Positions 5,368 through 38,279 of a stretch of DNA of 64,000 nucleotides are shown one piece after another. Source of the DNA: Burkholderiales bacterium (lineage in GTDB: Bacteria > Pseudomonadota > Gammaproteobacteria > Burkholderiales > SG8-39); NCBI GenBank assembly GCA_027493935.1, contig JAOSJV010000012.1, forward strand, positions 310,001 to 374,000, read 5' to 3'. Positions within the stretch are counted from its first letter, which is position 1. Each line of letters begins with the position of its first letter. The translations under genes were made by a program, and so were the position numbers. The notes beneath the pieces are model-generated. The model was not told where the DNA came from. It saw only the letters and a program-made list of their open reading frames with translations, and searched no databases.

Positions 5368-5799
5368 CTACCTAATCTCCAGAGCCTTGGGCTGCTGCGC
5401 GGCATGCGGGTGCGCGTCGCCCGCATACACCTTGAGCTTGCGGAACATCGCCGAGCCGAGCGGCCCCTTGGGCAGCATGCCCTTCACGGCGATCTCGAGC
5501 ACGCGGCCGGGATGGCGCGCGTGCAGCTTCGCGTACTGCGTCGACCGCAGCTCGCCGGGCTTGCCGAGATGGCGGTAATAGATCTTCTGCGTCGGCTTGG
5601 CGCCGGTCACGCGCAGCCTCGCCGCGTTGACGACCACGATGTAGTCGCCGGTGTCGACGTGCGGCGTGAACACGGGCTTGTGCTTGCCGCGCAGCCTGAG
5701 CGCGATCTGCGAGGCGAGGCGACCGAGCACCTTGTCGGCGGCGTCGACGACGTACCAGTCGTGGCGCGTCTCGCTCGGCTTGGCGGAGAACGTCTTCAT
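5368..5799 (-). CDS. rplM: 50S ribosomal protein uL13
   Basis: The protein has 143 residues, the family length, beginning [20 protein letters not shown]. Conserved segments include [17 protein letters not shown] and the MLPKGPLG motif. It is an early-assembling component of the large subunit. It is the first gene of the rplM-rpsI operon, with a near-consensus promoter and a leader of about 64 bases. In gamma-proteobacteria this operon is autoregulated by L13 binding its leader; I see no clear structure here to claim the same. Confidence 0.99.
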
Positions 5800-5870
5800 T
5801 CTGAGCTTCGGTTCGAGTACGGTCCGGGTTCGAGCCGCGTGCGCCGCACGCGGCCAAGAGAAAGCGTGGG

Positions 5871-5900
5871 ATTGTATTCGCGCGCGCGAGCCCCTGTCAA
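5871..5900 (-). promoter_or_regulatory. Strong sigma-70 promoter of rplM-rpsI
   Basis: On the minus strand a perfect -35 TTGACA (5900-5895) and -10 TACAAT (5876-5871) are separated by 18 bases. The predicted start is near 5864, about 64 bases before the rplM ATG. Confidence 0.85.
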
Positions 5901-5940
5901 ATCAGGCGCTTGTGATCACGTGCGCACGGCCGGCGCACCC

Positions 5941-5967
5941 AAAAAAAACGCAGCCTGTGCGGCTGCG
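5941..5967 (-). terminator. Intrinsic terminator of the candidate sRNA
   Basis: The 7-bp stem CGCAGCC/GGCTGCG with a 5-base loop is followed on the minus strand by T8 (5948-5941). The direction is unambiguous, and it lies upstream of the rplM promoter, so it must end a transcript coming from 6000-6150. Confidence 0.9.
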
Positions 5968-6090
5968 CTGAATCCACCAAAGGAGGAGGGTGGAGGAGAC
6001 TGAACCTTGATCGCTGTGCTGCGGTGCGCCTGCTCTTTCCGGCTTGCGCGGGCTACAGGCGCAGTATGCGCGTCAGCATACTGCGGTGCA
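5941..6090 (-). ncRNA. Candidate small RNA with anti-Shine-Dalgarno loop
   Basis: Read on the minus strand, the segment has three structured parts. A 10-bp perfect stem CGCAGTATGC/GCATACTGCG has a 6-base loop (6085-6060). A stretch containing CTCCTCC (5999-5992) leads into a second hairpin, CCACC/GGTGG (5978-5974 with 5993-5989), whose 10-base loop is CTCCTCCTTT. A strong intrinsic terminator with eight T follows. The loop contains CCUCCUUU, identical to the anti-SD core of 16S rRNA, and can pair with ribosome binding sites. No protein is supported here. The 5' end is not determined; the AT-rich DNA at 6120-6180 may hold the promoter, but I see no clean -35/-10 pair. It may belong to an already known betaproteobacterial anti-SD sRNA family. 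Confidence 0.6.
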
Positions 6091-6318
6091 AGCGATTTTG
6101 GTGCGATGCAGTATCCTTCGATCCATCTATGCATAAATGTCCTTAATGGGCCTCATGTCCCTAATTGGTTGAGGGAAATGTGATCGGCGGAAGCCGGCTG
6201 CAGGCTCGGTCGCAACCGCAATCATGGCTCTGCAGTGGGTGCCTATTGCACGGCACAACGGGCGCTAGGCACGCCACGCGCTAGAATGCACCCCACCCCG
6301 GACCGAGGGAGTTCAGCC

Positions 6319-6744
6319 ATGGATTGCACTGTTCGATGGAGCGGCCCCGATGGCGGCATGAGCTTCGTCGCCGAAACCGGCAGCGGACACGCGTTCGTCA
6401 TGGACGGCGCGCCGGAAGGCGGCGGGCGCAATCTCGGGCCGCGGCCGATGGAAACGGTGCTCGCGGGCACCGGCGCGTGCACCGCGTACGACGTCGTGCT
6501 GATCCTCAAGAGGAGCCGACAGGACGTGCGCGGCTGCGAGGTGCGCGTCAGCGCGGACCGCGCGGCGACCGATCCGAAGGTGTTCACCCGGATCCACATG
6601 CACTTCGTCGTGCGGGGCCGCGGCCTCAAGCCCGAAGCGGTCGCCCGCGCCACCAAACTCTCCCACGAGAAGTACTGCTCCGCCTCGGCCATGCTCGGCA
6701 AGACTGCCGAGATGACCCTCGACTACGAGATCGCCGAGGACTGA
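6319..6744 (+). CDS. OsmC/Ohr family protein
   Basis: A 141-residue OsmC-fold protein. The two redox cysteines of the family are visible in GACTAYDVVLIL and KYCSASAML, the second preceded by SHEKYC. Family members reduce organic or lipid hydroperoxides in the cytosol. The LGPRPMETVLAG segment and overall length match the YhfA-like OsmC subgroup more than classic OsmC or Ohr. The ATG at 6319 has GAGGGAG about 8 bases upstream; a TAGAAT box at 6282-6287 could be its -10. It stands alone, with the sRNA candidate transcribed away from it. Confidence 0.88.
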   Translation: MDCTVRWSGPDGGMSFVAETGSGHAFVMDGAPEGGGRNLGPRPMETVLAGTGACTAYDVVLILKRSRQDVRGCEVRVSADRAATDPKVFTRIHMHFVVRGRGLKPEAVARATKLSHEKYCSASAMLGKTAEMTLDYEIAED

Positions 6745-37988: not shown

Positions 37989-38203
37989 GCTCGACTCCCG
38001 CCCCGATCGCCTGCCGCGAGGCCGTTGCCCCGCGCTGCCGCTGCGGGGTCGCGGCGCGTTGCGCCGCGCCGGCCCGTAACGCGATTGAACGAACTTACTT
38101 TACAATGGCTTGGTGCGTCGCAACATTGATGCGAGTCAACCGACCCGAGGTGCCCGCGGCTTGACGGTCGAGGGGCGCCGAAGGAATAATGCGCGCCCCG
38201 CAT

Positions 38204-38279
38204 GGCGAGTTAGCTCAGCGGTTAGAGCAGCGGAATCATAATCCGTTGGTCCGGGGTTCAAATCCCTGACTCGCCACCA
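38204..38279 (+). tRNA. tRNA with CAU anticodon, probably tRNA-Met (elongator)
   Basis: A 76-base cloverleaf including CCA. The acceptor GGCGAGT (38204-38210) pairs with ACTCGCC (38269-38275), D-stem GCTC/GAGC, anticodon stem GCGGA/TCCGT with loop ATCATAA, anticodon CAT at 38237-38239, T-loop GGTTCAAATCC. Lysidine-modified tRNA-Ile2 also has a CAU gene sequence and cannot be excluded by eye. TACAAT at 38101-38106 is a likely -10. Confidence 0.9.

Follow-up and report, generated by a model that had tools for sequence, protein, structure and literature searches.

Predicted PhaR Operators in the Promoter of an RF02278 sRNA Gene Upstream of rplM in a Burkholderiales Genome

Introduction

What RNA is encoded on the minus strand between rplM and a divergent OsmC-like gene in a Burkholderiales genome, and how would its synthesis be regulated? 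We analyzed a window of 64,000 nucleotides (the whole stretch from position 310,001 to 374,000 of contig JAOSJV010000012.1), for which a sequence-only reading had proposed an sRNA that mimics the anti-Shine-Dalgarno (anti-SD) tail of 16S rRNA. The downstream neighbor (ORF 5368–5799, minus strand) is one that we take, from recognition of its translated sequence, to be rplM, encoding ribosomal protein L13, and tblastn matches to it lie beside the sRNA in relatives. The divergent ORF on the other side (6320–6744, plus strand) is a conserved neighbor that is presumably OsmC-like, a name also given by sequence recognition.

The betaproteobacterial sRNAs that bear on this question, the members of Rfam family RF02278, include S17 of Bordetella pertussis, NcS03, NcS05, NcS27, and NcS62 of Burkholderia cenocepacia, and Hsnc059, Hsnc063, Hsnc086, and Hsnc107 of Herbaspirillum. 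S17, whose gene adjoins coq7, is transcribed, processed, and Hfq dependent (PMC11722255), and both RNase E processing and repression at ribosome-binding sites have been reported for its relatives. The S17 promoter is active in vitro without an activator, and its authors speculate about a repressor, which they leave unnamed (PMC11722255). In B. cenocepacia, three of the four homologues have a common upstream motif, and the regulator of sRNA accumulation was described by the authors as yet unknown (PMC5688073).

Results

Positions 5940–6001 of the minus strand match RF02278, named "Betaproteobacteria toxic sRNA" in Rfam, at 60.4 bits against a gathering cut-off of 50 (cmscan; E = 1.1e-9 for the whole window), which is far beyond chance. 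The feature is a real sRNA-type gene of a known family and its RNA is one more copy of RF02278, the single copy found in this genome. The guess made from the letters, that the RNA might belong to a betaproteobacterial family of toxic anti-SD sRNAs, is thus confirmed by the covariance model. Scores for NmsR (RF02877, 20.7 against 52 bits), ncS16 (RF02866, 22.7 against 48), and isrD (RF01388, 21.4 against 37) fall below the respective cut-offs, and the RNA does not belong to these three families.

Alignment to the model and pair counts place all the RF02278 features, two hairpins, a U-tract, and the 5′ segment GUCUCCUCC, in the window copy, whose presumed processed form spans 5940–6001. Counts over relatives mark its 5′ segment GUCUCCUCCA (5991–6000) as a near-invariant anti-SD seed, with CTCCTCC at 5992–5998. 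Hairpin 1 (5973–5994), seen in the sequence and in the pairing counts, consists of UCCACC, the loop CUCCUCCUUU (DNA CTCCTCCTTT, 5979–5988), and GGUGGA, so that the second UCC of CTCCTCC is part of the stem and not free. The intrinsic terminator (5941–5967; stem 5961–5967 with 5949–5955, followed by U8 at 5941–5948) is the sole terminator-like site in a scan of 5750–6330, for which shuffles gave a mean of 0.5. The minus-strand CTCCTCC, the hairpin with its loop (counted as second in the sequence-only reading), and the T8 terminator had all been noted correctly, as had the 16S anti-SD core in the loop: the 16S-like tail of the source genome, GGATCACCTCCTTTCT at two places, has CCUCCUUU in common with it. 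Folding of 171 nt gave a z score of −2.43, with 3 of 200 shuffles folding equally well. Because the two CU-rich stretches here are separated by 3 nt, an exact search that required a gap of 5 nt or more had no match in the window.

How well are these parts conserved? Our comparison covers 164 loci above the Rfam cut-off, drawn from the matches listed (57 long loci, of about 3 kb or shorter, and 107 further ones); places below the cut-off fall outside it, as do other rows that include further copies of G043, G056, G005:C169, and G308:C88. These loci yield 157 distinct sequences, in which 98% of the hairpin 1 cells (903 of 922) are paired, against a shuffle mean of 93% and a shuffle maximum of 95%; for the terminator stem the share is 92% (1012 of 1099), against 66% and 69%. 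Compensatory changes occur in both. CTCCTCC lies within the first 12 nt at 153 of the 164 loci, and column counts over the distinct sequences show the 5′ segment to be nearly invariant. Single-sequence folding, a poor test of the seed, left at least six of the seven seed bases unpaired in 33 of 157. Compared with the 5′ segment, the loop is the variable part, as a CTCC-bearing loop is predicted in 97 of the 157 RNAs. Of the features named in the sequence-only reading for a conservation test at the rplM locus, the loop-bearing hairpin is conserved, the 16S-mimicking loop is less constant, and the 10-bp hairpin (see below) is not shared; within the 62-nt core, the two conserved stems are hairpin 1 and the terminator.

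The loop is central to the idea, put forward in the sequence-only reading, that the RNA acts as a toxic or global sponge, imitating the 16S tail and tying up ribosome-binding sites on a broad scale. Its sequence in common with the 16S-like tail would fit such a role, as would the naming of the family for growth inhibition in E. coli and the attenuation of growth by NcS27 overexpression (PMC5688073). However, the variability of the loop argues against general mimicry, and toxicity under overexpression does not show native function. Moreover, exponential growth of E. coli was unimpaired under overexpression of the short form S17S, and the number of genes raised in the absence of S17 is reported as 92 (PMC11722255). 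We consider both broad sequestration and toxicity doubtful, and a sponge of this kind quite improbable.

Of 61 relatives, 40 have RF02278; across the order it occurs in 211 of 329 genomes, with a match over the cut-off in 128, and none was found in 14 control genomes. Neighbors detected in the 57 long loci are rplM (38 loci), osmC (44), and coq7 (27); many relatives thus share this setting, and the place beside rplM and osmC has been kept in many of them. Several genomes carry multiple copies, with up to nine among the matches listed in genomes of family f8.

Since the sRNA lies on the same strand as rplM, with its T-run 142 bp before the rplM start and a terminator at its end, could it be an attenuator-bearing 5′ leader of the rplM-rpsI operon? 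A separate promoter predicted for rplM (TTGACA-18-TACAAT, 11 of 12 matches; 5871–5900, minus strand) lies downstream of the terminator, between it and the gene, so that the simplest view treats the sRNA gene and rplM as separate units. The sequence-only reading had placed the sRNA directly upstream of an rplM-rpsI promoter in the same direction. In addition, rplM was not found in 19 of the 57 long loci, and a number of genomes have several copies of the sRNA. The RNA is probably not an rplM leader, and with this separate promoter predicted we regard the attenuator as very unlikely indeed.

The promoter of the sRNA itself is predicted, from the sequence and comparison with relatives, to consist of a −35 element TTGCAC (6086–6091) and, 17 bp away, a −10 element CATACT (6063–6068), both on the minus strand. 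Most of the 24 other loci of the same family have a TTGC-NNN-GC element at −35 plus a −10. From the −10 position and the long and short forms of S17 (S17L and S17S; PMC11722255), the primary transcript would start at about 6056, with a 5′ extension at 6002–6056. The 10-bp hairpin described in the sequence-only reading exists as an inverted repeat with exact arms (6060–6085, minus strand). Since it lies over the spacer and −10 of the predicted promoter, it is probably not part of the RNA. In this respect the window copy is unlike its 24 family relatives, none of which has a perfect 10-bp repeat within 130 nt upstream of the sRNA (longest, 8 bp), and with the repeat confined to one of 25 loci we rejected it as a conserved operator or transcribed hairpin.

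Two elements of the form TGCRNYGCA, which were not part of the sequence-only reading, lie in this promoter. PhaR, a repressor of phaP1 that nascent PHA granules sequester, has the operator consensus YTKNTGCRNYGCANMAR in Ralstonia eutropha (PMC12849132), and a similar PhaR palindrome is described in Sinorhizobium meliloti (PMC12542648). The first predicted PhaR operator core, TGCACCGCA (6082–6090, minus strand; site 6078–6094), lies over the −35 element, and the second, TGCATCGCA (6102–6110, minus strand; site 6098–6114), lies 20 bp upstream of the first; both are exact cores. Two or more cores occurred in 12 of 5000 shuffles of the window's own 150 nt. By hand count, the full −35 site has four mismatches to the R. 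eutropha consensus and the upstream site two; the limit used for PhaR sites in R. eutropha was three (PMC12849132). Judged by its sequence, the −35 element that the window copy shares with most of its family relatives is the published PhaR site. The source genome encodes PhaR (PF07879 and PF05233 in one ORF), PhaC (PhaC_N), and a phasin (Phasin_2), and has cores before phaC and between the phasin gene and phaR.

How specific is the core? A longer pattern, TTGCRNYGCANMA, gave 27 rows genome-wide (26 places, one palindrome being counted on both strands) and its reversed control 24, and it matches neither site in the window; we therefore dropped the prediction of a genome-wide PhaR regulon. Autoregulation of phaR failed as a positive control, as a core was present anywhere within 3.2 kb at only 2 of 10 phaR loci, in one case far off. 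Autoregulation thus does not appear to be general, and phasin genes were used as the control in its place. Here all 30 loci (30 of the 60 places listed, in 28 hand-picked genomes) had a core in the 350 nt upstream, versus 0 of 30 when 350 nt of phasin coding sequence were searched. Since the longer pattern is not enriched and so few phaR loci have a core, the argument is built on where the core lies and how it is conserved, and not just on the motif.

Scoring phaR by PF07879 and seeking the core within 150 nt upstream, we found it at 97 of 131 loci in phaR-positive genomes versus 0 of 33 in phaR-negative genomes. Counted by genome the figures are 88 of 103 versus 0 of 26, and by family 15 of 17 versus 0 of 9, with three families in both groups (Fisher, 1.8e-5); because the loci are related, such Fisher values overstate their independence. 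Without the window's own family, the core is present at 73 of 106 versus 0 of 33 loci. The other 63 palindromes of the form XYZ-RNY-Z′Y′X′ occur at a mean of 0.98 and a maximum of 4 of the 131 loci, dinucleotide shuffles have the core at a mean of 4.15 and a maximum of 10, and the reversed pattern at 0. Core density is 6.31 per kb upstream of the sRNA versus 0.218 per kb elsewhere in the same long loci. The position is conserved as well: the core serves as the −35 element, with a −10 of at least four of six matches 16–18 nt on, in 73 of 94 scorable loci, compared with 13% for random anchors. In one same-genus pair, G195 has both phaR and the core and G303 has neither. Among the 329 genomes, 159 have sRNA and phaR, 52 the sRNA only, 67 phaR only, and 51 neither; in this sample, the sRNA occurs without phaR and the operator does not.

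Alternatively, PhaR may play no role, with the TGCRNYGCA element serving another regulator or simply forming part of the promoter. The longer pattern does not exceed its reversed control across the genome, and the strict core is missing at 34 of the 131 phaR-positive loci (family f8, 16 of 22; f31, 6 of 18; f10, 5 of 11; and 7 others). Against this, the core is missing from every phaR-negative locus, is present at every phasin locus of the control, and agrees with the published PhaR consensus (PMC12849132, PMC12542648). We judge an element without PhaR to be unlikely. Several of the coreless phaR-positive loci have sequences that resemble near variants of the core, which do not enter our counts. 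One of four same-genus loci (L010) is without a core. In two Burkholderia genomes (L211 and L238), no core lies within 260 nt upstream of the copy linked to rplM, so that the NcS27-like copy there may have left PhaR control; other RF02278 copies in family f31 carry the core.

Extra copies in families f31 and f20 (L095, L098, L099, L139, L140, L167, L168, and L173) have the operator and −10 immediately before the mature 5′ end, and thus seem to need no processing. By eye, some of the f8 copies (L105, L131, L143, L152, L158, L163, and L192) have a different type of promoter, with GATAT-like repeats and an apparent half PhaR core at the −10.

A scan of named genomes, covering 80 of at least 118 loci, of which 7 were left out for having no T-run or less than 100 nt upstream, found the core within 150 nt in 57 of 73 among the loci listed, and farther out, up to 260 nt, in L206, L246, L254, and L264. 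Core-bearing genomes include Bordetella, Achromobacter, Alcaligenes, Pandoraea, Paraburkholderia, Variovorax, and Ramlibacter. In Cupriavidus, the operator is present at some copies and absent from others. PhaR is present in all 26 named genomes tested, which were hand-picked from the 80 and include some with and some without a core. The promoter of the Bordetella genomosp. 12 locus (L254) is TTGCAACGCACAA...TACTAT, with 17 nt as spacer; for S17, the published promoter combines a −35 of TTGCAT with a −10 of TACTAT across 17 bp (PMC11722255).

What replaces the operator in phaR-negative genomes? By eye, most of these loci (L027, L102, L104, L110, L124, L177, L181, L196, and others) have instead a conserved dyad, approximately TATTAGATAATTCTAATA, over the −10. 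When up to one mismatch was allowed, 15 of 19 matches to this dyad in 14 hand-picked phaR-negative genomes were at the sRNA. Two phaR-positive loci of family f43 (L076 and L136) have an element similar to the dyad.

Discussion

Our main reading, to which we assign a probability of roughly 0.8, is that PhaR represses this SD-blocking RF02278 sRNA from two operators in its promoter and that PHB accumulation releases it. For this genome, PhaR binding, repression, and relief by PHB are steps that we infer. A sigma-70-type promoter, TTGCAC-17-CATACT, would start a transcript of about 116 nt that ends at the U8 terminator and that, by analogy with S17, may be processed to a stable RNA some 60 nt long. 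By pairing with the Shine-Dalgarno regions of particular mRNAs, the 5′ CUCC and the loop CUCCUCCUUU could then keep ribosomes from binding. PhaR would occupy both operators, and from the site over the −35 it would be expected to exclude polymerase. With surplus carbon, PHB granules would draw PhaR off the DNA, the sRNA would be synthesized, and genes for uptake and catabolism would be translated less. Which mRNAs might be its targets? Duplex energies of the two anti-SD sites against the ribosome-binding sites of a few genes of the source genome, some with guessed start codons, gave several that score alike.

Although the RNA itself belongs to a known family, with the covariance model match, seed, two hairpins, and terminator of other RF02278 members, the proposed link between PhaR and RF02278 is the new part. 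Our literature search, which included PMC9049629, PMC8401924, and PMC10987360, found no report of PhaR control of any RF02278 member in the accessible portions of these papers; its coverage of subscription papers was thin, and such an absence is not proof. There is a precedent for an sRNA under PhaR in MmgR of S. meliloti: its promoter contains a PhaR (AniA) site, as is predicted for the window sRNA, and repression by PhaR is reported (PMC12542648, PMC8401924). MmgR differs in that it is alphaproteobacterial and is reported to target phasins, and the PhaR-repressed phasin genes such as phaP1 of R. eutropha differ in that their product is a granule protein and not an sRNA. The sibling sRNAs NmsR/RcoF of Neisseria are alike in covering ribosome-binding sites with CU-rich single strands and in having metabolic targets (PMC5688073), but they belong to RF02877, of which the window RNA, scoring far under its cut-off, is not a member.

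It seems likely, if somewhat less so than for the locus itself, that PhaR and RF02278 form an ancient module across the betaproteobacteria, in which the PHB-granule sensor is the missing repressor and lineages without phaR have placed the sRNA under the other dyad. With PhaR operators at the −35 of many copies, answers would then follow on the natural signal of a family called toxic, on the repressor postulated for S17, and on PHB riboregulation in Cupriavidus necator, which a review has called undeciphered (PMC8401924). If our reading is true, storage of this bioplastic would be tied to translational control in many betaproteobacteria, and filling of the carbon store would itself set free an RNA that curbs, at the level of translation, the uptake and breakdown of nutrients.

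Finally, we note that the PhaR-like sites in the source genome (L050, L052, L043, L060, and L065) include, besides those before phaC and between the phasin gene and phaR, sites near genes for malate synthase, a GATase_2 protein (glutamate-synthase-like), and ribonucleotide reductase. Within the window, a further PhaR-like site, TTGCGACGCACCA (38111–38123), is located about 80 bp before a tRNA gene (38204–38276).
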